In this document: piece after piece, positions 13,501 through 54,864 of the stretch | How positions within the stretch are numbered: the first letter of the stretch is position 1 | Layout of the letters: each line of letters starts with the position of its first letter | Translations under genes and position numbers: made by a program | Notes under the pieces: generated by a model | Seen by the model: only the letters and a program-made list of their open reading frames with translations | What the model was told of the DNA's origin: nothing | The model's database searches: none | Source of the DNA: Craspedostauros australis | Lineage: Eukaryota > Bacillariophyta > Bacillariophyceae > Mastogloiales > Achnanthaceae | Assembly (NCBI GenBank): GCA_026770025.1 | Contig: JAMXDE010000033.1 | Coordinates: forward strand, 62,001 to 126,000 | Direction: 5' to 3' | DNA: 64,000 nt

Positions 13501-16159
13501 CGTCCACATATGCGGTGCCCACAATGGTGTGCTGCTCTCCCGTCACCGGGTTGGGTATGCGGAGCCCAAACCCTCGGTGCCGCATGTCGTCGATGATCGC
13601 GGAGCTGATGAGGAGCCACCCTGTGGGTGCGGATCCAAGTCCCTGGACCAGGCCCTGAAGGTAGTTGTGATCCTGTTTGCCCGTGTAGGACGCGTCAGAT
13701 GTGCCGGTGGCCATGCGAATGCGGTGTGTCATTGACTGTAACGTGTTGAGTGTGCTCGTGATCGGCTGAGGAGGCACTCCTTGGCGCTGCAGGGCGAGGC
13801 TGAAGATGGGGTGGGCTATTCTGTCATAGCAGCCTTTTGCGTCGTTGGAGCACACTGCGTATGGCTGCCCGGTGATCCTTGCGATATCGTCGATGAGTGT
13901 CGTGTTGAGGAGTACTTCCTGCGCGGTGTGCGCCTTCCTGCTCCCGTATTGCTCCGCCGCAAGTGTGCCGTTGGTTTCCGCATGTGACCTCGCTTGCTTC
14001 CCCAAGAGTCGGTTGTTCATATTGAAGTCCCCTTCCATGAGTCCGATGGTCCTTGTCTTGGTGACAGCTAGGTTGCCGGGCTTCTTGCGGAGTTGAATAT
14101 CCACGCACTGTTGCCACCTCTTCAGGCTGTACCCCGTCCTGTATGGTATCGACCGCATGATGGCATCAATTTCCGCAAGTGCTGGGTCGGTGGCGTTGAC
14201 CTTCCAGCACCCGAAATGCAGGCCGGATGGACCGGATGACGTGCTCTCTTTGATTCGGGCCCATCCTTTGGAGTGATCTTCCGCGCTGATGTGGAGGTTC
14301 TGGGAGCTCCACGCGGTGGTTTCCGAGGGCTGTTTGAGAGCCGAGAGCATGGCACGCGTGTTGGCGTTGGCCTGAGTTGGCACGATACCATGGAGAATGG
14401 CTGAGGCTGCTGTATTGGTGCCGAACCGCCCCAGACTGTTTCGCAGAGGCCTTTGGCACACTTCTGCTCGCCATGCTTGGCTGTATTTGTCCACGTTGTT
14501 GTTGCAGCATGCCCGTGCGACTTTTTCTCCGGATGTCAGCAAGTCGCCGGAGCCTCCTGGGCCGTCGTCAATCACGATGGTGACCTGTGCGTCGGCGCCT
14601 TCAGCTTGTAGCGACCATCGGATGCGCTGATATGTCGCCTTCGTCTCCTCACGTTGGAGGACTTGTGCTCGGTACTTCGCTGCGTCTTTGCCGTCTTGCT
14701 CTACCTCTGCTTCGTCTGCCGCAAGGAATGTTCTTCGATGTTGGGCTGCATGTGCTTTCTCTTGTTGGTAGGCTTTCCATGCCTGGTTGCGGCGCTGCTG
14801 CATCTCTGCGACTGTCATGTTGCGTGTTTGAACTTGGAGACTCGCCTTCTTTTTGGCCTTGTCTGTCGCTCTACTTCCGATGTGGTGTCCCTTGCGCCTT
14901 TTGATGCTGAGCGTCCAAAACCGGTGTTCCCACTGCAGCTTTGACACAATGGGAGAGAAGGGCACTCGACCTGCTCTGATCTTTCTGCATTTTCGCTCTG
15001 CGTCAAGCATGGCCGAGGTTCTGTCTCTGTCCAGCTTCTCGATGGCATGCGCCTGCTGTGGCGTAGGGGTCTGGCTGCCTATGGTTGAGTCAAGTGTTCG
15101 CGCTCGTTGTAGGAGCTGTAGGGATTCGGCTTGCTTCGCATACTCCTCTCTGTACTTGCGGACTGTGGCCGGTTGATTGATTTGGAGTCGTCTACCTCTG
15201 AACGGTGTCGACGGTTGTCGTGTGGAGCCGAAAAGGCTTGCCGTCCCAATGTCCATCCAGACTGCTCGGTGGTCCCAGTTACCATAGGGTGTCAGCCCAA
15301 GCTGGTTGGGGGCCACATCGCCTGAGGTCCAGAGTCCGTCGATGGGCACGTGGCTGCGGTTTCTAATCATGGTGGAGTAAGGCGGCCCAATGGTGTTGGT
15401 GTGGTGCTCTCTGAGCCCCGTTGCCGATAGCATGTTGGCGACTTTCGATCTGCGTACATCCATGTTGATGTCTCCGCCGAGGATGATGGTCTCACCCGCC
15501 TGCCGCCACTGCTCTATTTGCGCCTGCAGGTCTTGGATGAGGAGGTCGATGGGGTCCAGGGTGGTTTGTCGTCGTGCTGAGTGAACTGCCTGCTGGTTGT
15601 ACACTGTTCCCACGGTCTGAGTTGACTTGGTAGGGACGTACACAGAGACAACTCGCACTTTGATGTGTTGCTTGCCTTGTAGAAGTATGCTTGCCCACCT
15701 TCCGCATCGTTCTGGGTCGTTGCTGCGTGAGAGGACGCGTCCTGCAATGCTCCCATGAACCACCACTGCTGTGCCTCCCCACTGTCTCTGGCGGTCTGTC
15801 TCCGTGTGGCAGTGGGACGTGCTGGTCTTCGCCATCTTCAGGTGATTCTCAGCCCGTCTGCGGAGCGAGGACTCGGTTGGGGCTACTCTCCAGTTGATGC
15901 CGACCTCGGAGATGAGGAGGACGTCGATGTCGTGCTGCTTCACCGTCTGCCACAGGTCGTCGTTCTTCGGGTCGGTCGGATCAATGGGGATGCTGCCTGT
16001 GTTGAGAGCGGCTACTCTGATTTGGTTGGTTGGTTTGCCCTTGGTGTGGCGGCCTAGGTGCTGCTGTTGGGCGTTCAAGTCGTCCGATCTTGAGCGTCCG
16101 TGTTGGTTGGGTCCGTTGCTGTTCGGGCTGGACTGTGCCCGTCCGTGGCTGGCTGTCAT
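10553..16159 (-). CDS. LINE ORF2: endonuclease-reverse transcriptase-RNase H, 1868 aa
   Basis: The EEP-type endonuclease occupies roughly residues 45-310 (RVAALNTGSI, LISEVGINW, ILGGDINMD near 225, WDHRAVWMDI near 297). The reverse transcriptase shows motif A SNDAKGCYDRI near 771, motif B QGLGSAPTGWL, and the YVDD catalytic box near 884. RNase H follows, with acidic residues in CSDASAKD (about 1366), DSNRAELAG, IACDNNRAL and the His motif VRGHADD (about 1491). A zinc motif CPRCGLPEDNSHIIMC near 1622-1638 follows, as in many LINEs. The enzyme would nick target DNA and copy the element's RNA in place. All catalytic residues I could check are present. The start codon overlaps the ORF1 stop. Confidence 0.95.
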   Translation of the reverse strand: MTASHGRAQSSPNSNGPNQHGRSRSDDLNAQQQHLGRHTKGKPTNQIRVAALNTGSIPIDPTDPKNDDLWQTVKQHDIDVLLISEVGINWRVAPTESSLRRRAENHLKMAKTSTSHCHTETDRQRQWGGTAVVVHGSIAGRVLSRSNDPERCGRWASILLQGKQHIKVRVVSVYVPTKSTQTVGTVYNQQAVHSARRQTTLDPIDLLIQDLQAQIEQWRQAGETIILGGDINMDVRRSKVANMLSATGLREHHTNTIGPPYSTMIRNRSHVPIDGLWTSGDVAPNQLGLTPYGNWDHRAVWMDIGTASLFGSTRQPSTPFRGRRLQINQPATVRKYREEYAKQAESLQLLQRARTLDSTIGSQTPTPQQAHAIEKLDRDRTSAMLDAERKCRKIRAGRVPFSPIVSKLQWEHRFWTLSIKRRKGHHIGSRATDKAKKKASLQVQTRNMTVAEMQQRRNQAWKAYQQEKAHAAQHRRTFLAADEAEVEQDGKDAAKYRAQVLQREETKATYQRIRWSLQAEGADAQVTIVIDDGPGGSGDLLTSGEKVARACCNNNVDKYSQAWRAEVCQRPLRNSLGRFGTNTAASAILHGIVPTQANANTRAMLSALKQPSETTAWSSQNLHISAEDHSKGWARIKESTSSGPSGLHFGCWKVNATDPALAEIDAIMRSIPYRTGYSLKRWQQCVDIQLRKKPGNLAVTKTRTIGLMEGDFNMNNRLLGKQARSHAETNGTLAAEQYGSRKAHTAQEVLLNTTLIDDIARITGQPYAVCSNDAKGCYDRIAHPIFSLALQRQGVPPQPITSTLNTLQSMTHRIRMATGTSDASYTGKQDHNYLQGLVQGLGSAPTGWLLISSAIIDDMRHRGFGLRIPNPVTGEQHTIVGTAYVDDTNIMQSLTHSTPDEQAADFQKAVDRWDSLLTATGGALEPSKSFWQLMRFKWQQTKWVYDLSQPNIGVHMNAPTGERIQLAAHSPRTASKYLGMVSRRDGRQSEHAAYLAQKSNTWAERIRTSRIQRQDVEIAVKAVLWPSLAYSSPATTMTRTQWSKIMSTALTTALPSMGIARTIARDYVFGHADVMGLGIKHLHTTQVISHLEMIAQHYEQPTETGRLLRTSLRHLELWTGLPGTLQQTEPIWKGWTSATWWQNTFQSATALGISMRHMGHPATLPRQQDDTVMHQAILAGVTKRTLAQANVARLHLRVLWMSDIATARGEKIRPEILRQERLPANSVLWPSVGRVSKASWESWDQMLAALAASDRPGWHLRQPLGPWARIPPGRQVQLPSTAPPESADATPAPPTTAALSFVIDQAPRRSGVSIVSRGVIHEVTRPTTVRGWIHRKGPAAASMLSAIQVTGDIQRIAASIADGSCSACSDASAKDNHGSAATIIQCSPQNSDHQVIAAAEVPEGSHDMDSNRAELAGVLMSVWVISSIAEWAGVRGRATIACDNNRALRAADPLQWPQPNRKDYDLWSELVRSLRQSPVRFRQQEVRGHADDSEGQLTAWESMNVLADDVAGQQWQRISQDDGWSTARMTIVTSGWALATSQGPLTDLDYWTVAQASDVASTKQRWCRRWGSATPAEVDWTPMRITSRKWTGGKRRTLLKLMTGTSASGKNMTRRQQEQSDRCPRCGLPEDNSHIIMCPSQSSQAIWSKAVEKVRSIVRPPTTPPEVAQLLCTAIKRISTGGVPPSGIRASPTSAIQLRQSQVGWTALVWGGWSSRWRAEAPPMPPHRRRRAPRLLHDWQASVTNLLWHTVLTQWRDRNEVKASQTSVGMVAMLHCQLQDLRSRPADTIPAVLHPLWHHPPPLTQTQQLVAWIQAMRQGLGESAPPAAKVLVNWMRNYSRRSQAPAPSASSAPPQPPLPRRPSPHAPT

Positions 16160-18762
16160 GGTGACTCTTCTCCATTAGGCTGCGGAGCGTCGCCTTGGGG
16201 TTTACCCAATTCTCGTCTGAGGGCTTGGACTTGTGCTAGCAACTGGGCTTCTCGGGTCTGTGGTTGGTTGTACCTCGTCTCCGCGCCTGTGCGCAGGATG
16301 CCGTCGGTTCTGGGCTCTGGGTTGTTTTGGTTGGTGGTCGTTTCTGTGGCTGATTGGGTCTCGTTGTTGCCTCGGGTGGGTGCTATCGTGTAGGCCGAGT
16401 CTATCGACTTGTTGGTGGTGCCGATTGTTGAGTTTGGATTAAAGAGGCTTCGGTTGTCTAGGGCTGCTGGGCGGTGCGTGGTTGGCATCATTTCTGGAAT
16501 GTTCGTGATGATGACGCTTGCTGGGAATTCTTCATCCGCGATGTCTTCCAGGTTGTGCACGTCAGGGGAGGTGTAGTCGTTGGTTGCCGGGTCATGGACG
16601 ATGTTGATGCTTGCTATCCAGACCTCTGGGCTGAACCATTTCTCCGCTTTTGGTCCAATTTTGTGCCGTGCGATTGCTGGGAGTAAGCTCATAAAGTGCT
16701 TGGCTTCCTCAAGGTATTCTGGGAACGAGTGCGCCACGATCTGGTCTTCCGTTCCTCTGGCTCTGTCGACGCTGTGAAAGATGCGTTTGCCGCTTTCGTT
16801 GGTTTCTCGAAGTATGAGCTTTCGGAGGGTGATTGATTGGTTGGTGAGGTCTTTGACTTTTTTGTCCAGATGGACTACGCCGTCGGCGTCAGTGTATTCG
16901 ATGACTGACAGTATGGCTTGGTGTTTTGCCACTAGTCCTTCCCTGAATTCCATTTTCTTCTTGGACATCTGCTCGTACTTCTTGTCTGGCAGAAACCGAA
17001 AGTTGGTTGCTCCTGGCCTTTCTGCGCGCGTGTTGAACAAGTTGGCGATTTCGGTCACAGCGCTGAAGGCTTGAGATCTCTCCACTTCCAGTTTTACTGC
17101 TCGCCATGGCTGTACAGTCCAGTGTCGTTTCCCTTCTCTGAATTTTTCTCTCGTCTCCGTGCTGACTTGAACAATGTTCTTGATTTTGCCTCCCACTCTG
17201 ATTTCGCTGTTGTTGCGGCGTAGGCTTCGATTGATGATGTCCACTGTGCCATTGGTGTCGGTGAACCCGCCTGAGTACAGTAGGAATCCAATCTCCTTGA
17301 CTTCTTCTGCGTCTTGCAACTGCGCCTCGTACAGTCCTTCGTGCTCGTTGTAATAGTAGGCGTTGAGTTCCGAGTTTCTGTCAGCGGTGATGTCGAACGG
17401 ATTTTCTCTGGTTGTGATGCGCACTTTTGCGTAGGTGATTCCAGTGGCCCCTGATGGCGCTCTCAGCCCTGGGAAGAACGCGCGTAGCTCATCCATCCGC
17501 TCTGGGATTTGTCCTGAGTGTGCGATATGAGGTCCAGTGTTGCTGGCCTCACGCCATGGGAGGATCACTGCGGTCGGATCAATTCTTCGGACTTGCCGGA
17601 ACCAGCGTCTGATTCTGTCTCTGACTGCTGCGGTGGTGTCCTCCTCCGTTCTGTCGACGTTGAGTTTGATGGTGAATCTGGTGGTGAATTCATGACGGGG
17701 CGGAGCTATCTTCGTTTGGGAGGTGTTGGATTCCTTGTCGGAGCTGACTGAGATGTCATCTGTGTTGTTCTTCTGGGTGCCTTTGGGCCGGGATGTCTGT
17801 GTGTGTCTTGTCCTTCCTGAGTCTGTGGACGTGTCGCTGCTCATCGCCGATCCGGTGGATTGGGTGCTTGATGCGCCGTGTTGGCTGGCTGAGTTGAAGT
17901 GCGTGGTGTGTCTTGGGGATTTGAATCTTGTGCGTTTCGTGGGGTGCTGGCTTGTGTATGAGTCACTGTCAGTGCTGAGCGATTCCGTGGTCGGATTTGG
18001 TGGCATGGCTGCTACTCCTGTGTGTGGGGTTGCGTGTGCTTCCTCCTGGTGGGAGGTGTCCGTTTGTAGCGTCAATCCTTCCATCGCGGTGGAGCCGTTT
18101 TCCGTGTCTGTTGGAGGCGTGCCCAAATCGTAGTTTGAGCCGAGGACGCGGTTGGCTGCTTTCCACACTTTTACTGCGCGTGCGCTGCGTACTGTGCCGT
18201 CTTGGTTCAGGTGTGCTTTGAACACGTCGAGGGGGTTGGTTGATGCCACGTTAATGACAAACTGCAGGAGTCTCAGCCTGGTTGGATCGCGATTTGGCAG
18301 TGTGATCGGCCCGAACGCGGTAACCCGCCCGTCTGCGAGGTCTCTGAAGAAGTGCTCCCATTGCTTGGTAGTGGGGTGTTCACGGTCGGCTGTCGCTTCG
18401 TCCTTGTTGTACCACACCGCTCGTGCCCTCCACGCTGCCTTGGCCGCTCGATCAATTGAGCCGTCTCCTGTGGCACGTTCGAATGGCTGGACGTCTATGC
18501 CTGTCTTGTTGGCCGCTGTTTTGAAGGTGCTGGATCTCGGCTTGTATGTGATGGACACGTTGTCGGGGTCGTTCTCATCCATTCCGCCGTCGTATGGGAT
18601 GGCTCTTTTTGCTTGTCGTCGTGCTCGGTGTTGGTTACTTGCATCAATGGCTCCTTTGGCGGGAGGTTTGTCAGGTTCCTTGGCTGGTGGGTCCAAAGTT
18701 GGTGCTTCCTCTGGTTCCTTGGCGTCGCGGTTGCTCGTGTTGGGGTTGCTGTTCGAAGTCAT
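16156..18762 (-). CDS. LINE ORF1: putative RNA-binding/assembly protein, 868 aa
   Basis: It starts with ATG at 18762 and ends in TGA at 16158-16156, sharing ATGA with ORF2. The N-terminus is Pro/Lys-rich and probably disordered. A folded region near residues 120-215 (KQWEHFFRDLADGRV) is followed by a long Ser/Thr/His-rich linker. A second, larger globular region near residues 350-700 begins FTTRFTIKLNVDRTEEDT and contains many basic and aromatic residues. The C-terminus has a short coiled-coil-like segment (LLAQVQALRRELG). I see no CCHC zinc knuckle and no obvious RRM, so it does not match the common LINE ORF1 types. RNA binding and particle assembly are inferred from its position in the element. 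Confidence 0.85.
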   Translation of the reverse strand: MTSNSNPNTSNRDAKEPEEAPTLDPPAKEPDKPPAKGAIDASNQHRARRQAKRAIPYDGGMDENDPDNVSITYKPRSSTFKTAANKTGIDVQPFERATGDGSIDRAAKAAWRARAVWYNKDEATADREHPTTKQWEHFFRDLADGRVTAFGPITLPNRDPTRLRLLQFVINVASTNPLDVFKAHLNQDGTVRSARAVKVWKAANRVLGSNYDLGTPPTDTENGSTAMEGLTLQTDTSHQEEAHATPHTGVAAMPPNPTTESLSTDSDSYTSQHPTKRTRFKSPRHTTHFNSASQHGASSTQSTGSAMSSDTSTDSGRTRHTQTSRPKGTQKNNTDDISVSSDKESNTSQTKIAPPRHEFTTRFTIKLNVDRTEEDTTAAVRDRIRRWFRQVRRIDPTAVILPWREASNTGPHIAHSGQIPERMDELRAFFPGLRAPSGATGITYAKVRITTRENPFDITADRNSELNAYYYNEHEGLYEAQLQDAEEVKEIGFLLYSGGFTDTNGTVDIINRSLRRNNSEIRVGGKIKNIVQVSTETREKFREGKRHWTVQPWRAVKLEVERSQAFSAVTEIANLFNTRAERPGATNFRFLPDKKYEQMSKKKMEFREGLVAKHQAILSVIEYTDADGVVHLDKKVKDLTNQSITLRKLILRETNESGKRIFHSVDRARGTEDQIVAHSFPEYLEEAKHFMSLLPAIARHKIGPKAEKWFSPEVWIASINIVHDPATNDYTSPDVHNLEDIADEEFPASVIITNIPEMMPTTHRPAALDNRSLFNPNSTIGTTNKSIDSAYTIAPTRGNNETQSATETTTNQNNPEPRTDGILRTGAETRYNQPQTREAQLLAQVQALRRELGKPQGDAPQPNGEESP

Positions 18763-23221: not shown

Positions 23222-23491
23222 ATGTCGACAACACAATCAACGCCCACGACGAGTACACAGCCAACTCTACGATACCACCCTGGCCTGCGGCGTCCAACCG
23301 CTCATGTGTTGATGCTGCTGATCGGATTGTGCATCCTCGTCGTTCCCAGCATCGATGCGTGGCGAGGCAGCGGCATGCGTGGAACTCCACAGCCTGCACC
23401 GAAGGTCGTGCTGCCATGTCCTCCCGTCATCAGCGTGGACAACTGCGTCAAGTATCTCCTACAGAACTATCCGGATCAGGAACTCAACTGA
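23222..23491 (+). CDS. small secreted peptide precursor A, 89 aa (LPCPPV-DNC family)
   Basis: The ATG follows a CA-rich leader (TACCCTGCACC|ATG). A polar N-terminus is followed by a hydrophobic stretch, residues 28-44, ending SIDA|W, a plausible signal-peptide cleavage site. An internal ATG (23312) would give a more ordinary signal peptide. The mature part is only about 43 residues: Gly/Pro-rich, then LPCPPVISVDNCVKYLLQ and a short acidic tail. The two cysteines are spaced as in the gene at 34208, whose C-terminus matches this one closely, so the two are paralogues. I know no named family. Size, signal and two cysteines suggest a secreted or wall-bound peptide; its function is unknown. Confidence 0.7.
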   Translation: MSTTQSTPTTSTQPTLRYHPGLRRPTAHVLMLLIGLCILVVPSIDAWRGSGMRGTPQPAPKVVLPCPPVISVDNCVKYLLQNYPDQELN

Positions 23492-24627
23492 ACGTGGACT
23501 CATCACTACATACTGCACTTCCAACCAAGCACGCCAAATAGCAAAAGGCAGCATCATCGACACCGACGGCAGCGTCAACCATGGCAACATCAAAAGTTGC
23601 ACTGTCCAACTGCGCTGCTTCGCAACCCATAGCCACAGCATGACGACAAACATCACCAAGCCGGCAGCTTGAGATCGCGGTGACGCGCCACGTTTACCCC
23701 GATGGGTGTCAACCCGTTGGCGCTCATCGTGCGACATGGCTGATCTCTGCTCGATGGCACGGTGCGGTCTTACAGACGCATCCTGGCCGATCTTTTCACG
23801 TCCAACCAGCTGCTGCTGCCTCATAATTCTCTTTGCACACCATAAGCGACCCTCGCTTCCAATCCAAGAGGGTCTGCTCGCATCACACATACACGCATCC
23901 ACAAGCTTATCGCGAACGTCCACACTCCATGGCCTGCTCCTTGAACACACTCACTCGCATACCTACTCGTCGCTCTGCGCGTTGAACCACAGGCAATGAA
24001 GACTAGCGCGTCTCCAATGTCGCAAGCTGCATGACAGCAAGCCACAGCACATACTATCATACCCATCCATACATGTAACAACAAACACTTAATAGTTCCC
24101 CACCAAACAAGAGCGCTGACTTTCTCGTCTCGCCTTGAATCTCACACTCGCCGCCATCGCTGATTCGTGATGCGGAATGACGAATCAAGATCCAAAGGGA
24201 TCGAGAACAGGAAGAAGTGCGAGTGAATCTAGAATCTCACCTCTCCGTGCCATCCTTGTTCGTCTCCGGGCACGAATTCTCACGACACCGATTCCCGAAC
24301 GTTGTTGAATTCAAGCCAGAAGGAACACAATTGTCGGCACGAATCCGAAGATCTCATCCTCGCCATACTTTGTGAAGCACACGTGCTCTGTGAGCCCCCA
24401 GAACGTTGACGCTGAGGCGGAGGGGCAGATGCAAAGGTGAAGACAGGGTGTTCGTGCCTGTCCGTGCTCTGCGCTCGCCAGCGAATCCAGCATTGTGGAG
24501 ATTTGGCACGATTTGTGAGGTTGACTCCGACGAATCAAAAGTCATGCACAAGCCCACGCAGCGTCCGTTGATGGCGATGACCGTTAACGAGGAGTTGCGA
24601 AAAGGCATATGAATCGATGACTCAATG
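23492..24627. other. intergenic stretch between peptide gene A and the copia element
   Basis: 3' flank of the peptide A gene and spacer up to the target-site duplication. Short open frames on both strands carry no recognisable domain. Confidence 0.5.
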
Positions 24628-24632
24628 CTCCG
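24628..24632. repeat. copia target-site duplication, left
   Basis: CTCCG directly before the left LTR, repeated directly after the right LTR at 33783-33787. Five bp is usual for Ty1/copia integration. Confidence 0.9.
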
Positions 24633-25319
24633 AGTTGAGATTCAATGAGGGACAGACTAGTACCGAACACGGTATCAACCCGATGGGAGAAATTCCTGTT
24701 TTGGCGCGAAATCTTCCGACTTGATTGACCACCAAACCTTTTTCTCCTCCTTTCTCTCCTCCATTCACGAATCCATCATGACTCAAACCTGACCGACCTG
24801 ACTCACACCCCACCTGGGAACTATATGCTCTTCAGATCCTCCTTACTAAAACTTATCTCGATTCCTTCATTGCTGATGACCACCACACTACCACCGTGGT
24901 CTCAGCATGCGTATCCAACTTGCTTCAACTCAAGCAATGGAATCCGAGTGTCAGCTTCAGCCACAGCCACTGCTTCATGACCGTCACCACTGATTGTCAT
25001 GACCTACACTGCAGTGTAACTACATGTGCGGAGAGCAAGGTACTGTATTGACTGTCTACTCTGTTGCACTGAATCAAGTGCATCAGTGCAGGGTCTCGCC
25101 AAGTTGTGTGGCATCGTTTCTTCACCCTACTAACACCAATAAGCTAACTCATAATAACGGACTAGGATTAGCTACAAAGCACTCTACTTCTCATCGTTAC
25201 AAGTTATAACTATTCAAACAGCACACCTCTCTTGAACTGCATCACACGGCTATCCCGAAGCCGGCAGATTCACGAGGCATTCTCCACCGATTCGCGACGC
25301 CTACGCACGAATCCTAACT
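24633..25319 (+). repeat. left LTR of copia element, 687 bp
   Basis: The ends are AGTTG...TAACT, giving the inverted tetranucleotides AGTT/AACT instead of the usual TG/CA. I compared it with the right LTR line by line and saw no difference. A 61-codon open frame inside it (25024-25209) recurs in the right LTR and is not a gene. Confidence 0.95.
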
Positions 25320-25746
25320 GGTAGCTGCGAGTGGTTGCCAAATACTCTCTTATCAACTCCACCGAGCATCTTCCTCTGCCAACCGATCGCAAGAGTCTCT
25401 CTGAGACGAAGCCAAAAGGCACAGCTCGAAGACCGAGCTTCCAACAAGGACCACGTCCTCACCGCATGCATCTGATCTGAAATCAGATCCCCACCGCTCG
25501 AAAACCGAGCCACTCAAGAGGACAAAAGTCCCAGCTGAAGGTAAGCGACCCAAGGTCGAACTTCAGTAGCCTCTGCCAAAGCAAGCAATAACCGCACTCG
25601 CCGACCGAGTGCGAGCCCCTCCAAGCCTGCATCGAACTTCAGTGCACACCTTCCCAACGAAGTGAAGTCGAGCAAGAGCAAGAGAAGGCAAACAGATCGA
25701 TCCCCTCGAAGTCCGAAGACTATTCGAGAAGTCCCCGTCATCCATC

Positions 25747-28700
25747 ATGGCGGAAGAGACAACTCCTGCCACGCTGGAAGAGCTGCAAGCGCAGCTCGAA
25801 GCGATCACGGTCGAGAACGCTCGCCTCACACAGGCGACGTTGGCGGCCGAAGCCGCTGCAGAAGCAGCAAACGCGGCCATAGCCACTGCCCAAGCAGCGG
25901 CGACAGCCACCACGACCCCAAGCCGTCCCGGTCTCGAGCGCAGCCGCTCCGCTGGCGACACAAGACCTCGAACGGAACAGTCCTTCCTCGGCGACAGCAT
26001 CTTCGACATGGAAACCCCCATGCCCAAGAAGAGCAGAAAGTCAGAAGAGGACAGCGAAGACGACGACCACGACCTCTCTGGGAAACCAACCGTTCCCATC
26101 ATGGGAGGTATCCTCAAGCAAGGACGCAACTGGGTGCCCTGGACCGCAGGCGCGCCGAACGGGCATTGGACGGGCCTCCAAGACGAGTCACACACCAGGT
26201 GGACCAACTCTCAACAACAGAGAATCCTCCATAACGGTGCTGACTCAACCAACCAGTCCAAGCGAGAGCAAGGACTCACCGACAAGTTCAAGAAAGGAGG
26301 GAACATCCAGCAGTTCATTCGCCTGGTGCGAAACCACATGGCAAGAACCGGACTCCTCACCATGGCGTACATCGCTGACGCCAACGCAGAGTCAGGAATG
26401 ACTTGCGTCTTGGACTCACCAGCCGCCTTCACTCTTGAAGATGCCACCAAGCACTTCGACGAGTTCCATCTGAAGTGGGATCACTACGACGTCCAGAACA
26501 ACGAGACAGCCTCAGCGTTCTTCCGTGACAGTCTTGATCCAGCCCTCGAAGACCAACTCATGAACCGAATCGAGCCGAAGTTCCACGATAACTTCATCAC
26601 TCTCTTCGTTGAGTTCATGAACAGCAACTCGGCCAACTCCTTGGATGAACAAGACGCCCTCGCAGCCAAGATCCGCGAAGTCAACTGCAGACGTTTTCCA
26701 AACGAGAACGTTGGTCTCATGGCAGTCCACCTCCGTGCTCTTTGCAAGCGCCTCGACGACGCCGGTCGCTTCGACCTTCGTCTCCTCCGAACGATCCTCG
26801 ACGCCTTCCTGCAGGCTGGAGGACAGATCCGGTCTGGTGAACAGTACCGACGTCCTCTCTATGTGATGAAGGATAACCTTGAGGAAATCCTCATGCGTCT
26901 CCCCGTCTTCACGTACGAGTACGCTCGCCCCCAGCTTGCCGCAAAAGATCTCACATGGATGGCAATCTGCAACAAGGCCGAGGCGTCGTACGAAAACGAA
27001 GTGCGCGGAAATCGCTGGCATGCCATCAGGCGTACCAGAGACAGCAACGTGCCCAGGTACTCGTACGCCAACAACGCCGTCCAGAATCCAAGCGCCAACG
27101 TTCTCGAGCAACACAAGGGTTTCTCCAAGAACGACGGAAGGAGAAACAACTTCAAGAAGCCCAAGGAACGCGACGCCAAACGCAACGCCAGCCAGGGCTG
27201 GTCGTCCAAAGCTCCCAAGCCCGGTGAACCACAGCGCAAGCTTGTCAACGACAAGACTTTCATGTGGTGCGCCAAGTGCCGCCGCTGGCGTCTCTCGCAC
27301 AACACTGAGAGTCATCAGGACAACTTCAAGTTCAAGGCGAAGGCAAAGGGCAAGCAAGCTCCCAAACAGGACAACCTCTCCATTGACATGGCTGCGTGGA
27401 CATGCTTCACAGCCGCCTCCAGTCAAGACGAAGACACCTGGTGGTCTCTCGTCTGGAACCTCTTCACCTCCTTCAACTACTTCGGTAGCATCGTTGGAAT
27501 GGTTCTCCTCTTCGCCTCACTCCAAGTCATCACTATCGGAGTAGAGTATGGGTGGTACATCGCGGCAGCAAATGCCTGGATGCTAATTGCCGTAACTCTA
27601 CTACTCCTCCACACGAACGTACCACGAAGACCTGACTCAATCAACTCTGCTGATCTAGTCTACAACAAGGCACGAGTCAAAGAACGGTACAAGCAAGTGC
27701 ATAAACGTCCAACACACTTCAATGGAGCCGTGAAACGCAGTCTCTACGATCTCGTAATGGAAAGTCTCGACCCAGATGGACCCAAACCCGTGAACGTGTC
27801 GAAAGGAAACTCCCCACGAACAAAACGTGTGTGGCGTCCCCAGGCTCGGACCAAAACTCGCAATCACAGATCAAAACGTCGTCACTGGAACCAATCGAAA
27901 AATTCCACTTATGGTAAAAACCAAACACCCACGACAGCAAAATTGCCCCGCCAAGAAGGTCGCACCTCATCCATCTCACGAAATCTCTGGAGCCTGTACC
28001 CAACTCGCGGAATTGACTTGATGTATGATCGAAGTCAAAAGCAACAATGTGACAATGACATGCCCGCACTACTCACTCTGCAAGGTCTAGCCTCCTTCTT
28101 CTCCAATCGCAATGCTTTCGCATCTCCAGCTAAAGCTGAGAGTTATCTCTCACCCGATGCTCCATTCGAACTCGTTTGGGACAGCGGAGCATCAATTTCT
28201 GTGACAAATGACCTCAACGATTTCTGTTCTACTCCAAGTCCTCCACCAAGACCGACCTTTCTCAACGGATTCCTCAAGAAAATCCAAGTGAATGCGTTGG
28301 GAACCGTCGAATGGTATGTCCTTGATGTAACTGGAAGCCCTCGCAAATTGCGACTGCCTGCTTTCCATGTTCCCGAATCAAAGGTCAAGCTAATCAGCAC
28401 TTCCAGTCTCCTTGAAGAGTATCAGGGCGAAACGATCGTTTTCAACAAATCCTCCTGCAAACTCAGCGGAATCCTGGGAAACGACGATCGCAACGCAATC
28501 GTAGCGAATTACAAGAAGTCCACAAGGCTACCAACATCAGTCGGCTACAGTGCCGACAACATCCATGACGTGCCAGCTGCACTAACTTCCATCGTCTCCA
28601 CCGTGTCGGACCACAACGTGAACCTCACCCAACCGCAAAAGGAACTTCTTCGGTGGCACTATCGTCTCGGACATTTATCCTTCAGTCGAGTGAAGTTCCT

Positions 28701-31700
28701 GCTGCGTTCGGGTACTCTCACCGGGTCAGAATCGTCTAGAAAGATGCACACAGCTGCGGCAAGGGTCACAAGCCTCCCGCTTTGCGCTGCATGCCAATTC
28801 GGAAAGCTGCACCGTCGCCCTTCCCCAGGAATAACTCAACATGTCGTCCGTGACAAACAAGGAGTTTTGCGCACCGATCACTTGTTCCCTGGACAACAAG
28901 TATCAGTGGACCACTTCGTCGGTCGAACGCCAGGACGCCTCTTCTCAGGACGAGGCAAAGGCGATCCAAACGAAATGTACAAAGGCGGAGCCATCTTTGT
29001 CGATCACGCATCAGGATACATTCACGTGGAACCTGTGGCAGCGCTAACCACGCACGCCACCCTCGAAGCCAAGGAACGGTTCGAACTGATGTGTCGTGAT
29101 GTTGGAGTCCCCGTACGATCGTATCTATCAGACAACGCCACCACCTTCACCTCACCCGAATACTCCAAACACCTTGAAATCTTCCATCAAGTCCATCGAT
29201 TCGCAGGTGTCGGCGCACATCACCACAACGGAATAGCCGAGCGAAGCATTCGAACAATTGTCTCAATGGCCCGAACCATGATGATGCATCAAAGCATCCA
29301 CTGGCCAACGATGTTTGATGCTCAACTATGGCCAATGGCCGTCGTACACGCCGCGTACATCTACAATCGCGTGCCTAATCCCGCCACCGGTCTCACACCC
29401 TACGATGTTCTATCACGCATCCGTCTTCCCCTCAAGCAACTTCATAACCTGCACGTATGGGGCAGTCCAGTCTATGTCCTTAACAAAGCGCTGGCCGATG
29501 GACGCAAGATACCCCGATGGGAACCAAGAGGAGAGAGATACGTGAACATGGGTCTCTCTACGAAGCATGCTTCAACCGTACCTCTAGTCCTATCACCACG
29601 GACAGGTTCAATCACCCCTCAGTTCCACGTCGTGTTCGATGACTGGTTCGCAACGATTGCTACCGACTTGAAGCAACTTCCAAGCTATCAATCGGAAGAA
29701 TGGACTCGCATGTTTGGTGACACCACCTTCCAATATCCATTCGATGACGACGATGTGGAATCAATGGAGCAGGACGACATCTTCGCATCAGACACGCGAG
29801 ACCACAACCGGTTACAACGCAACGACGATAACACTCCACCACCGAGTTTTGATACGCGAAACCAACAAACCATCCGTGAAAGAACGCCACAGGTATTGGC
29901 GAAAGGGTCGCAACCAATGACACAACAGATCCCCGATCTCATGAGTGAAGCTCTCGCCCCTCCGATGCCAGTTTCAGAGGGAGCCAACAGGCAAATGTCC
30001 TCGACAGAGGGAGCTCCCGATGAGTCCCCGGTACCTGACTCTACTATAGAGTCACCGGATCAGCGAACACTTCAACCGCAATTGAGCTCACCTCTCCGAG
30101 AATCACCAACATTGGAATTAGCAACTCCATTACCACTTCCAGCTCCGACGCCAATTCAGACGAGCTCCACGCCACCCATGATACCTAAGTCTGAGCCAAC
30201 GCCAGAAAGACCTCAAAGCACGAGAATTCGCAAACAACCAAAGCGATTCACGTACGCACGTATGGGAGGCAAAGCAGCCTGGCTGGACGACGAAGACACC
30301 GATGATTACTACTTCTGCCCTGCAGTAGCTACCTTGGAAGAGATCGAACAGGCCGCAACACCCAGGGAACTGCACCCCGACTCATCATCGATCATCACAT
30401 TCTCACAAGCTATCGTCGATTGCTTACATACAATCGAACCTCTCCAACGCAAAGGTAGCGACTCTCTCTCCATCGATCTACACCAATTCAAGGTGGACGC
30501 TCACTACTTGTTGCGCAGACTCCGAGGTCGATTCAACACCTTGAATCCACAGCCAACCAACGTCGTCCTCCCAACGTTCGCTCCAAAGGCGGCTGAAGTA
30601 GAAGAAGCAAGCATCAACATGGCTGACTGGTGGCAACCGGACCCCGACAACATGACCGAGGAAGGAGCGACTCCATTTCAGGAGACGTACAACAACTTTC
30701 ACTCGGACATGGAGGACCATTTCGAGAAAGACCTCAACAGCGTCTTTCTCAACGAAGACCTCCTCCGACTGGCCACTGACCACGCCGTCGAGCAATTCGT
30801 GGAGAAGCTGAGCACCTTCATCAGTACTGGCACGATGGAACCCCACTTCGACGCTCTCGACTTCATGTCCAAGGCCAAATCAGGGCCATGGTACTACCAA
30901 GACCCCGAACATTTGATGAACCAAGGGTACCTTCCACCCAAATCTGCGTACAACGCAGAAGCGTTCGTCCAAAGGACTCGCTCCGTGTGGAATGCGATGA
31001 TCGAAAATCATCATTACCGTCTCGCATTCGAGCTACTCCGTCGCCAAGTGACGACGATCCGACCAGGACCGTGGCCACTTCCAAGCGAATACGAGATTGA
31101 GCAATTCGTCCAAGGCATGATTGAGTCGAACACGGCGCCACTCACTTCGGCCCCAGCGACTCGCTCCGCCAACAAAGGATCCATGCTCGACATCGACTCG
31201 TCATCCACGCTCGACATCAACCCGTCGTTCATCCTCGACACAGCGAAGTGCATTCCACCAACTACATGGGCGAACATCGAACAGCATGCCTACTCTGTCG
31301 CAATCATCGAGCCACAGAAGGATGCAACAAACTACCCCACCTACGTCGATAATCGCATGATCAGCTACTTTGCCGCAGGTGGCGACTTGGAGATCGCCGA
31401 ACGCACCTCGGTGTACAAGGCATCCAACACCGACCCGGATACTCTCTCCTTCGACGAAGCCATTCGCGACGACAACAAAGACGAGTGGATGCAAGCCGCC
31501 GAAAAGGAGATTCGAGATCTCACGGAAAAGGGCACGTGGGAGGAAGTGAAGAAGATCGACATCAAGAACGATCGCATCTTTCCAGGAACCTGGGTCTTTC
31601 GCCGCAAGCGCCTCCCCGACGGAACCATCAAGAAATACAAGGGACGCTGGTGTTGCCGTGGAGACCTCATGCAAGAGGACTCCTCCACCTACGCACCAGT

Positions 31701-33012
31701 CGTCGCATGGTCATCCGTCCGCATCTTCCTCAGCACTTCCATCGTCATGGGTTGGACAACAACGTCCATCGACTTCACGAACGCTTTCGTGCAAGCATCC
31801 ATCCACAAGCCAGTCTACCTTCATCTCCCTCGTGGATTCAAATCAACGAAGGGTCCCGACACCTGCCTCAAGCTCCGCAAGAGCCTGTACGGCTTGACGA
31901 TTGCTCCTCGCCTCTGGTATGAACACCTCATCCGAGCCCTCACTACGATCGGCTTCAAGGCCTGCGACCAAGAGCAGTGCTTGTTCATCAAGAAGGACAT
32001 CATGATCGTCCTCTACGTTGACGATGCGGGCATCGCCTCCAAGACCAAGCAAGCCGCCGACGACTTCATCAAATCAATGCGCGACCTCGGCTTTGAGCTC
32101 ACCCAAGAAGGAAGCTTCACCGAGTTCCTGGGAATCGAGCTCAGCCGTGATCCAAAAGCAGACACGGTCCATCTCCGCCAACCAGGACTAATCAAGAAGA
32201 TCCTCGCCACTACGAAGATGACGAACTGCAGTCCGTGCCCCGTACCAACTACGCAGCTCGCACTGGGACAATGCAAGCATGAGCCTCCCATGAACGAACC
32301 ATGGAACTACCGCTCCGTCGTCGGCATGCTGTTGTATCTCACGACCAACACTCGCCCCGACCTGGCATTCGCAGTCTCCCAAGTCGCTCGCTTCGGAAGT
32401 GACCCTCGCCGCTCACACGCCAAGGCCGTCAAGCGCATCATGCGCTATCTCAAGCACACTGAGGACAAGGGTACCATCGTGCGTCCCACCGGGCAGCTTG
32501 ATCTCAAGTGCTACGTGGATGCAGACTTCGCAGGACTCTACGGACGAGAAGACAGCAAGGACCCCGTCTCAGTCAAGTCGCGCACTGGCTACCTCATTAC
32601 GCTGGGAGGGTGCCCCCTCATTTGGAAGTCCAAACTCCAAACTGAGATTGCTCTATCTACGATGGAGTCCGAGTACGCCGCTCTCTCTCTCGCAATGCGC
32701 ACGCTGATTCCCATTCAACAGCTCATCCGCCAAGTCATCAACAATGCCGGCACCACCATGCCACTGCACACCAACCTCCAGTGCACGGTGTTTGAGGACA
32801 ACCAAGCCTGCATTTCCCTTGCTACCAATCATCAACCAACCGCGCGCACCAAGCACTTCCTGACTAAGTGGCACTTCTTTTGGTACTGGGTCAAGGCAGG
32901 GTTCATCTACATCCAGCACATCGCAACACCGGAGCAACTGGCCGACATCTTCACCAAAGGACTGTCCATCGCAGTCTTCGAATACCTGCGATTCAAGATC
33001 ATGGGTTGGTAA
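25747..33012 (+). CDS. copia gag-pol polyprotein, 2421 aa
   Basis: A single frame with all expected parts. Gag fills roughly residues 1-540, with a Cys/His cluster (WCAKCRRW...H...H) near 507-525 as zinc-knuckle substitute. Two hydrophobic, membrane-like segments follow at about 570-598 and 602-622. The aspartic protease shows WDSGASIS near 811. Integrase has the HHCC finger at about 968-1020 and the catalytic core (SVDHF, FVDHASG, LSDNATT, HHHNGIAERSIR). An acidic, low-complexity linker of several hundred residues leads to the RT (SIDFTNAFVQA, LYVDDAGIAS near 2089) and copia RNase H (YVDADFAG, TMESEYAAL, HFLTKWHFF). The membrane-like pair between Gag and protease is unusual for the family. 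Confidence 0.95.
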   Translation: MAEETTPATLEELQAQLEAITVENARLTQATLAAEAAAEAANAAIATAQAAATATTTPSRPGLERSRSAGDTRPRTEQSFLGDSIFDMETPMPKKSRKSEEDSEDDDHDLSGKPTVPIMGGILKQGRNWVPWTAGAPNGHWTGLQDESHTRWTNSQQQRILHNGADSTNQSKREQGLTDKFKKGGNIQQFIRLVRNHMARTGLLTMAYIADANAESGMTCVLDSPAAFTLEDATKHFDEFHLKWDHYDVQNNETASAFFRDSLDPALEDQLMNRIEPKFHDNFITLFVEFMNSNSANSLDEQDALAAKIREVNCRRFPNENVGLMAVHLRALCKRLDDAGRFDLRLLRTILDAFLQAGGQIRSGEQYRRPLYVMKDNLEEILMRLPVFTYEYARPQLAAKDLTWMAICNKAEASYENEVRGNRWHAIRRTRDSNVPRYSYANNAVQNPSANVLEQHKGFSKNDGRRNNFKKPKERDAKRNASQGWSSKAPKPGEPQRKLVNDKTFMWCAKCRRWRLSHNTESHQDNFKFKAKAKGKQAPKQDNLSIDMAAWTCFTAASSQDEDTWWSLVWNLFTSFNYFGSIVGMVLLFASLQVITIGVEYGWYIAAANAWMLIAVTLLLLHTNVPRRPDSINSADLVYNKARVKERYKQVHKRPTHFNGAVKRSLYDLVMESLDPDGPKPVNVSKGNSPRTKRVWRPQARTKTRNHRSKRRHWNQSKNSTYGKNQTPTTAKLPRQEGRTSSISRNLWSLYPTRGIDLMYDRSQKQQCDNDMPALLTLQGLASFFSNRNAFASPAKAESYLSPDAPFELVWDSGASISVTNDLNDFCSTPSPPPRPTFLNGFLKKIQVNALGTVEWYVLDVTGSPRKLRLPAFHVPESKVKLISTSSLLEEYQGETIVFNKSSCKLSGILGNDDRNAIVANYKKSTRLPTSVGYSADNIHDVPAALTSIVSTVSDHNVNLTQPQKELLRWHYRLGHLSFSRVKFLLRSGTLTGSESSRKMHTAAARVTSLPLCAACQFGKLHRRPSPGITQHVVRDKQGVLRTDHLFPGQQVSVDHFVGRTPGRLFSGRGKGDPNEMYKGGAIFVDHASGYIHVEPVAALTTHATLEAKERFELMCRDVGVPVRSYLSDNATTFTSPEYSKHLEIFHQVHRFAGVGAHHHNGIAERSIRTIVSMARTMMMHQSIHWPTMFDAQLWPMAVVHAAYIYNRVPNPATGLTPYDVLSRIRLPLKQLHNLHVWGSPVYVLNKALADGRKIPRWEPRGERYVNMGLSTKHASTVPLVLSPRTGSITPQFHVVFDDWFATIATDLKQLPSYQSEEWTRMFGDTTFQYPFDDDDVESMEQDDIFASDTRDHNRLQRNDDNTPPPSFDTRNQQTIRERTPQVLAKGSQPMTQQIPDLMSEALAPPMPVSEGANRQMSSTEGAPDESPVPDSTIESPDQRTLQPQLSSPLRESPTLELATPLPLPAPTPIQTSSTPPMIPKSEPTPERPQSTRIRKQPKRFTYARMGGKAAWLDDEDTDDYYFCPAVATLEEIEQAATPRELHPDSSSIITFSQAIVDCLHTIEPLQRKGSDSLSIDLHQFKVDAHYLLRRLRGRFNTLNPQPTNVVLPTFAPKAAEVEEASINMADWWQPDPDNMTEEGATPFQETYNNFHSDMEDHFEKDLNSVFLNEDLLRLATDHAVEQFVEKLSTFISTGTMEPHFDALDFMSKAKSGPWYYQDPEHLMNQGYLPPKSAYNAEAFVQRTRSVWNAMIENHHYRLAFELLRRQVTTIRPGPWPLPSEYEIEQFVQGMIESNTAPLTSAPATRSANKGSMLDIDSSSTLDINPSFILDTAKCIPPTTWANIEQHAYSVAIIEPQKDATNYPTYVDNRMISYFAAGGDLEIAERTSVYKASNTDPDTLSFDEAIRDDNKDEWMQAAEKEIRDLTEKGTWEEVKKIDIKNDRIFPGTWVFRRKRLPDGTIKKYKGRWCCRGDLMQEDSSTYAPVVAWSSVRIFLSTSIVMGWTTTSIDFTNAFVQASIHKPVYLHLPRGFKSTKGPDTCLKLRKSLYGLTIAPRLWYEHLIRALTTIGFKACDQEQCLFIKKDIMIVLYVDDAGIASKTKQAADDFIKSMRDLGFELTQEGSFTEFLGIELSRDPKADTVHLRQPGLIKKILATTKMTNCSPCPVPTTQLALGQCKHEPPMNEPWNYRSVVGMLLYLTTNTRPDLAFAVSQVARFGSDPRRSHAKAVKRIMRYLKHTEDKGTIVRPTGQLDLKCYVDADFAGLYGREDSKDPVSVKSRTGYLITLGGCPLIWKSKLQTEIALSTMESEYAALSLAMRTLIPIQQLIRQVINNAGTTMPLHTNLQCTVFEDNQACISLATNHQPTARTKHFLTKWHFFWYWVKAGFIYIQHIATPEQLADIFTKGLSIAVFEYLRFKIMGW

Positions 33013-33086
33013 TAACCAACAACAACAAACAACAACGAAGGATGAAGTTTTCATCGATACCACAACTCCAATCACGACCCAACACT

Positions 33087-33095
33087 GAGAGGGAG
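33087..33095 (+). other. polypurine tract of copia element
   Basis: Short purine run GAGAGGGAG abutting the right LTR, the expected place for plus-strand priming in LTR elements. Confidence 0.6.
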
Positions 33096-33782
33096 AGTTG
33101 AGATTCAATGAGGGACAGACTAGTACCGAACACGGTATCAACCCGATGGGAGAAATTCCTGTTTTGGCGCGAAATCTTCCGACTTGATTGACCACCAAAC
33201 CTTTTTCTCCTCCTTTCTCTCCTCCATTCACGAATCCATCATGACTCAAACCTGACCGACCTGACTCACACCCCACCTGGGAACTATATGCTCTTCAGAT
33301 CCTCCTTACTAAAACTTATCTCGATTCCTTCATTGCTGATGACCACCACACTACCACCGTGGTCTCAGCATGCGTATCCAACTTGCTTCAACTCAAGCAA
33401 TGGAATCCGAGTGTCAGCTTCAGCCACAGCCACTGCTTCATGACCGTCACCACTGATTGTCATGACCTACACTGCAGTGTAACTACATGTGCGGAGAGCA
33501 AGGTACTGTATTGACTGTCTACTCTGTTGCACTGAATCAAGTGCATCAGTGCAGGGTCTCGCCAAGTTGTGTGGCATCGTTTCTTCACCCTACTAACACC
33601 AATAAGCTAACTCATAATAACGGACTAGGATTAGCTACAAAGCACTCTACTTCTCATCGTTACAAGTTATAACTATTCAAACAGCACACCTCTCTTGAAC
33701 TGCATCACACGGCTATCCCGAAGCCGGCAGATTCACGAGGCATTCTCCACCGATTCGCGACGCCTACGCACGAATCCTAACT
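33096..33782 (+). repeat. right LTR of copia element, 687 bp
   Basis: Same length and, by eye, same sequence as 24633-25319 at a constant offset of 8463 bp. Confidence 0.95.
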
Positions 33783-33787
33783 CTCCG
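33783..33787. repeat. copia target-site duplication, right
   Basis: CTCCG, matching 24628-24632. Confidence 0.9.
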
Positions 33788-34207
33788 GTATATATGTAAC
33801 AAAATATCGCCAGTCATCGGAGGATGACCGCATTCCTCTCTCTTCATCCCGCTTTGTGGGCAGAAGTTGCGTTTCGGTACGTGCAAGCTCGGTACAAACC
33901 AAGAGGAAGCAACACACACAAAAGACGTACCAGACAACCCACCAAGCTTGCTGAACAAGACACAAACAGTCGCGGTATTGTCACGCAGATCACAGACCAT
34001 TGGCACTCGGCATCGGCATCAGCATCAGCATCACACACCACCACCACCACCAACAACACCAACACCGACACCAACGCAAAGGCATCACAATCACCTGCAG
34101 AGCTCATAAAAACCGCAACCATCCAAAGACCAACGACAAAACCAACAACTCTCATACTCCACCACAACGCACCCACTCACTCACTCACCCACACACACAC
34201 CATCACC
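33788..34207. other. upstream region of small secreted-peptide gene B
   Basis: The sequence remaining between the copia element and the start of the gene at 34208. Its last 200 bp are CA-rich (ACCACCACC, AACACCAACACC), typical of leaders here, and contain a CATAAAA element at 34104-34110. Confidence 0.55.
34104..34110 (+). promoter_or_regulatory. CATAAAA TATA-like element
   Basis: GCTCATAAAAACC, 104 nt before the ATG at 34208. The same heptamer occurs 65-86 nt before four other plus-strand start codons in this window. A role as core promoter element is inference. Confidence 0.4.
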
Positions 34208-34474
34208 ATGAAGCAGCAACAGACGAAGTACGCCTCCATCCTCATGCTCTCCCTCATCGCCATCACGTTGTGCCTGTCAGGCGTGCAGTCCTGGAAGACT
34301 TCGACGACGAAAGTGATGTCGTGGGGTGATATCACGACGGCTGAGTCGTCACGCATGTACAGCTCACTCATCGGCAGGCCCATTACGAGCAACAAGGCTG
34401 CAGCCATCATGCTGCCGTGCCCTCCAGTCATGAGTCGCGACAACTGCCTGCACTACATGTTCCAGGACATCTGA
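34208..34474 (+). CDS. small secreted peptide precursor B, 88 aa (LPCPPV-DNC family)
   Basis: A clean start (CACCATCACC|ATG) opens a typical signal peptide: basic start MKQQQTK, hydrophobic core ILMLSLIAITLCLSG, cleavage near VQS|W. The mature part is about 60 residues, Ser/Thr/Lys-rich, ending MLPCPPVMSRDNCLHYMFQ then DI. The C-terminal 20 residues align with those of the gene at 23222 (LPCPPVxSxDNCxxYxxQ), and both have Trp right after the likely cleavage site. The middle parts do not align, so selection seems to hold the C-terminus. The natural reading is a secreted or surface peptide whose C-terminal Cys pair matters. A copia element stands about 420 bp upstream. Confidence 0.75.
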   Translation: MKQQQTKYASILMLSLIAITLCLSGVQSWKTSTTKVMSWGDITTAESSRMYSSLIGRPITSNKAAAIMLPCPPVMSRDNCLHYMFQDI

Positions 34475-36038: not shown

Positions 36039-36305
36039 ATGAACCGCTCCATCATCGTCATCTTCATCGCCTTGTGCCTGGCGCTGCCGCAGACGCATTC
36101 TGCGTTCACCAAGAGACGTCGACATTCCACGAACAGCAACAACCCGCGTTCGAACAAGCGCGCCAAGGAGATTGATGACAGTCTCGTCTCGGAGCGCGTC
36201 AAGGGCGGGTTCGTGCAACCAGCATTGGTGGCACGGCATCAGAGCAGCAGCCTGTCGCCGCCATCGACGCAGGACGAAGACGATGACTGTGCCTTGTGCA
36301 TGTGA
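36039..36305 (+). CDS. small secreted peptide precursor C, 88 aa, basic
   Basis: The ATG follows a CA-rich leader (ACATCCACC|ATG). The signal peptide is clear: MNRSIIVIFIALCLALPQ with likely cleavage after THSA. The mature peptide begins with a strongly basic part (FTKRRRHS, then SNKRAKE), containing dibasic sites that could be processed, and ends with a Ser/Pro region and an acidic Cys tail, DEDDDCALCM. Like genes A and B it is about 88 residues, has a signal peptide and keeps two cysteines near the C-terminus, but it lacks the LPCPPV motif, so relationship is not shown. Unknown family; secreted by inference. Confidence 0.7.
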   Translation: MNRSIIVIFIALCLALPQTHSAFTKRRRHSTNSNNPRSNKRAKEIDDSLVSERVKGGFVQPALVARHQSSSLSPPSTQDEDDDCALCM

Positions 36306-54139: not shown

Positions 54140-54864
54140 CGCCAAGCTGATTTGCTCTCCTTGCGTTTCGCTGTGTTTCTACTATGATGATGCGTACTGG
54201 TAGGATGAGGAGCCATTCACATGTTGCAGCATGTCCGTGTGAGCCGCATCCGAAGTGAAATCGTAATCTATGTTCGTACAGTATAGCTCTCTATGGAAGT
54301 GGAGAGAGAGCAATGGTGTTTGTCCAGCATATCCGTACGACGACGAGTATGGAAGACTGCTTGTTGTGGGACGTCCTGGGTCGGAATCTGCCGTTCCATG
54401 TCATTGGAGTGGCTCGCCATGAAAAGTTGTTTTGTTTTCCTTGTTTTTGATGTGTTGTCCGTTGGCATCTACGGCAATCGGGAGGGACTTCGTCATACCA
54501 TGATCTAACCAAACACGAGTAGATTGATCATCAGGAGGTGTTTGCAGAAGTCTATATACTAACTCTCTCTCTCGAACGAACGAAAGAGAGGGTCCCTGAT
54601 CAAGTTGCGATACTACGAGCTACTCCAACCATTTAGCTCTGTGCATGGTATGCATCAGGCATGTTGTCTCTCAATTCGCGATCGCATCGCGGAGCCGACC
54701 ATTCTTTTCGAATTCCTCTACAGCAGCTTTGAACCAGTTGAGTCCACAACCTCCCTATCCGTACTATGCTCGTGGCATCAGAATGACCAAAACATGCGGT
54801 CGTTTGTGCGTCAACGGCAACGCCCAGAAGCAAACCAAATGACGCCAGCATGTCTGCGAGATCA
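54140..54864. other. spacer between tandem GT10 genes
   Basis: Promoter region of the downstream copy and 3' flank of the upstream copy. No gene is supported. A CTCTCTCTC...GAGAGAG inverted stretch lies near 54563-54592. Confidence 0.5.

Follow-up and report, generated by a model that had tools for sequence, protein, structure and literature searches.

A Tandem Pair of Tiny Diatom Precursors with a Conserved Two-Cysteine Tail, Tentatively Read as Plastid-Imported Micropeptides

What is made by two tiny genes whose products agree in their C-terminal tails and in little else, and where in the cell would those products act? The genes lie in a stretch of 64,000 nucleotides from the diatom Craspedostauros australis (assembly GCA_026770025.1, contig JAMXDE010000033.1, positions 62,001 to 126,000 of the forward strand), referred to here as the window; positions are those of the window unless another contig is named. 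A first-pass annotation had proposed a family of tiny secreted peptides with a signalling, wall or defence role. Analysis of the sequence confirmed that gene 1 and gene 2 are a real tandem pair of tiny precursors conserved at the protein level. We tentatively read them as tandem-duplicated nuclear diatom genes encoding plastid-imported micropeptides; import is ranked above secretion, which appears somewhat less likely. The genes and their tails are located as follows.

23222..23491, plus strand: gene 1, encoding an 89-residue precursor (P0001); codon score best of the six frames; CACC before the ATG
34208..34474, plus strand: gene 2, encoding an 88-residue precursor (P0002); in-frame codon score of 0.266; CACC before the ATG
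23411..23488, plus strand: conserved tail of gene 1, 26 residues, with C-x8-C-x-x-Y; proposed mature peptide
34412..34471, plus strand: conserved tail of gene 2, 20 residues, with C-x8-C-x-x-Y; proposed mature peptide

The coordinates, lengths and residues of both genes were as first described. The codon score of gene 1 was −0.031 in its own frame, with the remaining five frames at −0.184 or lower, and it ranked 12th among the 122 listed open reading frames (ORFs) of 70 to 110 residues that begin at a first ATG. Gene 2, whose stated frame was likewise the best of its six, scored above all 122. A further in-frame ATG is located upstream of gene 2 at 33824, and the stretch from there to the gene 2 start was taken as leader sequence.

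The tails LPCPPVISVDNCVKYLLQ (gene 1) and LPCPPVMSRDNCLHYMFQ (gene 2) have the same residue at 12 of 18 positions, which bears out the near match reported for the C-termini. The residues kept between LPCPP and the final Gln include both Cys, CPPV, DN, Tyr and Gln, giving the pattern LPCPPVxSxDNCxxYxxQ. In both tails (CPPVISVDNC and CPPVMSRDNC), eight residues separate the Cys pair, the first two of them Pro, and a Tyr occupies the third position beyond the second Cys. Ahead of the tail, the alignment is largely limited to the layout, in which a hydrophobic N-terminus is followed by [I/V]-x-[A/S]-Trp-[R/K].

An all-against-all comparison was run on 295 entries, made up of 293 short ORFs of the window and the two precursors, so that gene 1 was entered twice. 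Gene 1 and gene 2 scored 37.4 bits (expect value [E], 1.9e-7), and the next pair below them scored 32.0 bits. Four nonoverlapping pairs scored higher: two inside the identical long terminal repeats (LTRs) of a retrotransposon and two among ORFs antisense to duplicated glycosyltransferase 10 genes. The post-signal parts of the precursors gave a local alignment score of 85, whereas none of 2000 shuffles exceeded 41. The variable parts taken by themselves scored 15, a value reached by 1077 of the 2000 shuffles, in agreement with the earlier description of the middles as unrelated.

The tails differ at 17 of 54 bases, distributed over first, second and third codon positions as 5, 1 and 11, and different codons are used at 5 of the 12 identical residues. 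This pattern indicates that the tail is conserved at the protein level. Because 11 of the 18 third positions have changed while the tail has been kept as protein, the gene duplication is probably old. The same data bear on whether the genes could be nonfunctional, that is, decayed or chance reading frames. The lack of relatives found elsewhere and the middling codon score of gene 1 would suit that explanation, but the bias toward third-position differences, the retention of 12 of 18 residues, the frame-specific codon bias and the good start contexts in both genes argue against it, and we regard it as very improbable.

The AlphaFold2 model of gene 1 was poor (mean predicted local distance difference test score [pLDDT], 58.8; predicted template modeling score [pTM], 0.24), and a fold search of the PDB with this model gave no match. 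A sequence search of the PDB returned nothing for P0002 and a single chance match for P0001 (E, 3.1).

Between the genes lies a mobile element, whose features are as follows.

24632..33782, plus strand: Copia-type LTR retrotransposon between the two genes; 9151 bp, with identical 688-bp LTRs
25747-33012, plus strand: polyprotein ORF of the element, a single open frame of 2421 codons
about 24632-25319 and 33095-33782: LTRs of the element, 688 bp, identical

The name Copia reflects the order of domains as judged by eye. The element starts 1141 bases past gene 1 and ends 426 bases ahead of the gene 2 ATG, and it is flanked on both sides by the repeat CTCCG, provided that the LTR begins one base after the start of the identical block. 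With the element removed, the genes are ∼1.56 kb apart on the same strand. We read gene 1 and gene 2 as a tandem pair that is split by a very recent insertion.

Are there further members? The organism's own genome (74.8 Mb, 90 contigs) was searched with five protein queries, namely, P0002, P0001, a 22-residue tail, a 29-residue tail and a 23-residue hybrid. Only the two loci were credible, with the partner gene found at E values of 2.7e-4 to 3.5e-3 by the four single-gene queries; the remaining rows were weak (E, 0.007 or worse) and had an internal stop or partial tail coverage. Three rejected candidates, C17:1243832 (E, 0.40), C1:842513 (E, 0.13) and C3:846263 (E, 0.16), lack an internal stop, and in each the tail is not covered as a whole. 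As the genome search scores best candidates only and reads exon by exon, two members is a lower bound. A DNA pattern that encodes LPCPPV and allows only CTN codons for Leu gave seven matches, comprising the two genes and five unrelated frames, compared to eight for the reversed control. In 256 kb of contig C31, no third credible member was found among the tblastn matches listed or in a small-ORF screen. The proposed "family" is thus a real homologous pair that stands at two members, with no third credible in its own genome.

One frame of a dispersed repeat resembles the gene 1 tail (E, 0.007 to 0.11), with a stop inside. Its copies at C59:45230, C7:2377146, C5:2272151, C13:793604, C15:1330790 and C30:225472 match this tail at 13 of 24 residues in five cases and 11 of 24 in one (39 to 41 of 72 bases identical), and the sole copy compared to the gene 2 tail (L045) matches it at 6 of 20 residues. 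We judged the resemblance to be chance, though not with certainty.

Relatives of the pair were likewise absent from a viral contig collection. The only match in prokaryote genomes was antisense to what appears by eye to be a GroEL-type chaperonin gene and was rejected as chance, and a sigma-70 promoter scan, being meaningless in a eukaryote, was not used. Pfam gave no family for either precursor at E values up to 10, and NCBIfam gave a single unrelated weak row (14.7 bits against a cutoff of 80). No family in either collection and no solved structure fits the pair. No published description of the pair was found in the accessible literature on diatom small secreted or cysteine-rich peptides, peptide pheromone precursors and small plastid proteins, nor was "LPCPP" found in the diatom literature searched; most subscription journals were outside the scope of both searches.

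If the tail is what selection keeps, what is the rest of each precursor for? The front ends were divided as follows, with cleavage sites placed by crude hydropathy and the (−3,−1) rule alone.

23222..23359, plus strand: signal-peptide-like N-terminus of gene 1, 46 residues, with a long n-region (hydropathy and (−3,−1) rule)
23360..23410, plus strand: variable middle of gene 1, 17 residues beginning with Trp, net charge +3, no acidic residues; proposed transit peptide
34208..34291, plus strand: signal-peptide-like N-terminus of gene 2, 28 residues (hydropathy and (−3,−1) rule)
34292..34411, plus strand: variable middle of gene 2, 40 residues beginning with Trp, net charge +3; proposed transit peptide

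The previously noted signal-peptide-like starts and the Trp after one possible cleavage site were recovered in both genes under these rules, the sites being IDA|WRG in gene 1 and VQS|WKT in gene 2. In diatom precursors destined for the four-membrane plastid, a signal peptide leads directly into a transit peptide that mostly begins with Phe (PMC2173943, PMC4329603, PMC12136025, PMC2567999). Import is described as permitted solely by F, W, Y or L at position +1 (PMC2173943), and the high-confidence class of ASAFind includes a check for the same four residues at this position (PMC12136025). Plastid transit peptides are reported to be nearly free of acidic residues over their first 15 positions (PMC12136025), and the transit peptides deduced in Thalassiosira are 12 to 42 residues long (PMC3774753). 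The layout of gene 1 and gene 2 fits this scheme. The +1 residue at the chosen site is Trp in both, within the permitted F/W/Y/L set; the first 15 residues from Trp include three basic and no acidic residues in gene 1 and two basic and one acidic in gene 2; and the lengths of 17 and 40 residues fall within the 12- to 42-residue range if the tail, whose boundary is inferred, is the mature peptide. Like precursors of the ASAFAP type, those studied here have a signal-like start, one of the four residues at a possible +1 position and a basic, acid-poor stretch. They differ from them in having Trp in place of the usual Phe, an expected mature part of just 20 to 30 residues and a weak or missing stromal motif.

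The Phe form of the presequence is present in the same genome, which has 61 matches to chlorophyll-binding proteins. It was seen in a CP12-like frame (ANG|FSV) and in two of the four light-harvesting stretches fetched (AAA|FAP and SSA|FVT), with no presequence seen in the other two. Two further Phe-form ORFs on the contig were chosen for their Phe and are therefore illustrations rather than controls.

The exact cleavage site, compartment, processing, disulfide and partner are those that we infer in the following scheme. The signal peptide would take the precursor into the endoplasmic reticulum (ER), here the chloroplast ER, and cleavage would expose Trp as the first residue of a short, basic, acid-poor transit peptide. 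This transit peptide would be the portion free to diverge, which would account for middles that cannot be aligned next to a tail under constraint. Its removal after import would release a peptide of about 20 to 30 residues with the conserved tail, whose two Cys, eight residues apart, may close a loop by a disulfide or be reduced in the stroma. The likeliest work of such a peptide would be redox-dependent binding of a plastid partner. The retention of Trp and its adjoining residues, while the rest of the front end diverged beyond alignment, adds weight to a presequence.

Several points weigh against plastid import. Trp is rare at +1 in diatom plastid precursors; the HECTAR paper describes Trp, Tyr or Leu as replacing Phe only rarely (PMC2567999), and 63 measured Thalassiosira precursors are described with Phe or Tyr at +1, possibly as a selection criterion (PMC3774753). 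Judged by eye, the stromal cleavage motif, Leu at −2 with a hydroxylated residue before it, is present only in part in gene 2 (MYSSLI|G) and missing from gene 1, and a large aliphatic residue at −1, as in the gene 2 site, was not found in the study that reports the motif. Composition fits only in part the expected Ser/Thr-rich, positively charged and nearly acid-free transit peptide: gene 1 has just 2 Ser/Thr in the first 15 residues from Trp (gene 2 has 6), and the variable part of gene 2 has one acidic residue in its first 15 and two in its first 20. The signal region of gene 1 is long at 46 residues, and a mature stromal product of 20 to 30 residues would be unusually small. A loose screen for this layout is unspecific: it was passed by 24 of the 149 signal-like ORFs in C31:1-256000, 5 of them with Trp, including both genes, although the 149 surely include many that are not genes. 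Finally, the (−3,−1) rule alone allows, over the range examined, three cleavage sites in gene 1 and nine in gene 2, the Trp sites included; the alternatives in gene 1 are VPS|IDA and GSG|MRG. These other sites count slightly against plastid import and in favor of secretion.

Secretion, the function first proposed, would make the genes precursors with a signal peptide, a disposable variable pro-region and a conserved C-terminal peptide with one disulfide, serving as a signal or in the wall or defence. Plant-type secreted peptide hormones such as CEP and CLE share the order of signal, variable middle and conserved C-terminal motif, and this match in layout counts for secretion, as does the possibility of cleavage elsewhere than before Trp. 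Unlike in those hormones, the front end here can be read as a plastid presequence, and we know of no sequence relation between CEP or CLE and the pair. A third tiny signal-bearing precursor adjoins gene 2, which also favors secretion. A 10-residue ring, CPPVxSxDNC, could form, and SIP+ of Seminavis robusta is a disulfide-closed diatom signal. SIP+ is described as a heptapeptide that contains a Cys-Cys ring and in which two prolines are hydroxylated and the aspartate is sulfated (PMC12843257, PMC12352721); its ring fragment is made up of Cys, Ala, Leu and Cys, and its linear part of the two hydroxyprolines and Asp (PMC12843257). The other diatom pheromone named in these reviews, diproline, is a cyclic dipeptide (PMC12843257, PMC12352721). 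The tail resembles SIP+ in being short and from a diatom and in having two Cys, Pro-Pro and Asp, but with eight residues between the Cys it is a different peptide, and an identity with SIP+ was rejected. Secretion leaves the position of Trp and the acid-poor basic stretch unexplained, and neither precursor has a dibasic site from Trp to the tail. The SIP+-type sequences CALCPPD and CLACPPD, in residue orders assumed from the review, had no match in the genome, a search that split genes would escape. The homologous pair, the signal-like starts and the conserved two-Cys tail of the earlier proposal therefore stand, while its signalling, wall or defence role is possible but not the best reading.

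A signal peptide could also deliver the product to another endomembrane site (ER, vacuole, periplastid space or silica vesicle), where the tail would bind a partner. The signal peptide alone would permit this, and periplastid and plastid signals are described as very similar, but the periplastid test-set proteins in the same source lack Phe or a similar residue at +1 (PMC12136025). Neither precursor has a KDEL-type end, the C-termini being DQELN in gene 1 and QDI in gene 2. We consider such a destination unlikely.

Returning to plastid import, the Cys spacing suggests a possible partner. GapB carries a CP12-like tail, and in CP12 and GapB, as in both tails here, a Tyr stands three residues after the second Cys. 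The tails of gene 1 and gene 2 share with them a C-terminal C-x8-C with Pro in the loop, the loop residues differing and no other sequence being shared. A C-terminal Cys pair eight residues apart, with Pro between, is often present in CP12, and both Cys of Thalassiosira CP12 were found free, not bridged (PMC7992989). CP12-like exons or genes occur in the same genome as two adjoining loci (L051/L052, contig C1 near 2693296 and 2694212). One scores 25.1 bits, above the cutoff of 22.7, and has C-x8-C near its end (DECLVETAADAC); the other, at 21.2 bits, is below the cutoff and has the ANG|FSV presequence. The profile match of the frame with C-x8-C spans model positions 5 to 39 only. These parallels raise a special case of plastid import in which the peptide would be a free-standing CP12/GapB redox tail acting on plastid glyceraldehyde-3-phosphate dehydrogenase (GAPDH). 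It is highly unlikely, since one spacing match is weak evidence and the Pro of CP12, which Thalassiosira CP12 lacks (PMC7992989), is central in the loop, whereas here Pro is at the loop start. The CP12 profile PF02672 had no match in either precursor at E values up to 10, with the HMMER filters dropping most weak matches, and the AWD_VEEL motif is absent from both. CP12 identity was ruled out on these two grounds. A CP12-like mode of action for the tail is a guess with a single number, the Cys spacing, in its favor. A bolder version would have the import presequence make up most of the gene and the delivered 20- to 26-residue two-Cys peptide act as a free-standing redox-switched regulator, similar to the CP12/GapB tail but not CP12 and the first of its class; we regard this as a long shot.

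If plastid import is true, a gene that annotators would class as encoding a secreted peptide encodes a micropeptide of an organelle. Precursors as tiny as these are easily overlooked during annotation, and the F/W/Y/L mark could be used to screen diatom secretome lists. If secretion is true, the two genes are candidates for diatom peptide signals, of which little is known. For searches of other diatoms, the conserved 18-residue tail offers a simple handle.

The third tiny precursor is located as follows.

36039..36305, plus strand: third tiny precursor, 88 residues, with a signal-like start, 1.6 kb downstream of gene 2

The signal-like start is followed by Phe and then by a run of mostly basic residues (HSA|FTKRRRHST), and the precursor has an acidic end with DCALCM. 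Its codon score was the highest of the 122 listed first-ATG ORFs of 70 to 110 residues, and its absence from the list of signal-like ORFs in the screen is attributed to His at −3. It has no detectable similarity to gene 1 or gene 2, and in its own genome it matched itself and one row at an E value of 1.0. The C-A-L-C at its end has the same residues as the SIP+ ring, probably by coincidence.

Other features were observed in the genome and the window. The silicon transporter family of the genome is very large, with 88 matches to PF03842, with pieces of one gene counted apart and inflation by haplotypes possible; 32 of the 88 cover 480 or more of the 513 model positions, and 28 of those 32 have no in-frame stop. 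Example loci are as follows.

C11:710408-712021: silicon transporter (PF03842)
C9:2024068-2025684: silicon transporter (PF03842)

Together with the matches to chlorophyll-binding proteins, these transporters are what one expects of a photosynthetic diatom; some other silica-bearing algae also carry silicon transporters. Typical copy numbers are given as 3 to 5 in most species and 1 to 6 in 37 Thalassiosirales (PMC10700740).

In the window, positions 10553-18762 are taken up by two long frames next to each other on the minus strand, of 1868 and 868 residues, which resemble by eye a non-LTR retrotransposon, with an endonuclease/reverse transcriptase and an upstream ORF. At 8074-9438 is a 454-residue protein with a signal-like start and DUF7633, extracellular-looking by eye. 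Two similar adjoining minus-strand frames occupy 53216-56181, of which 54865-56181 matches glycosyltransferase 10, fucosyltransferase (PF00852).

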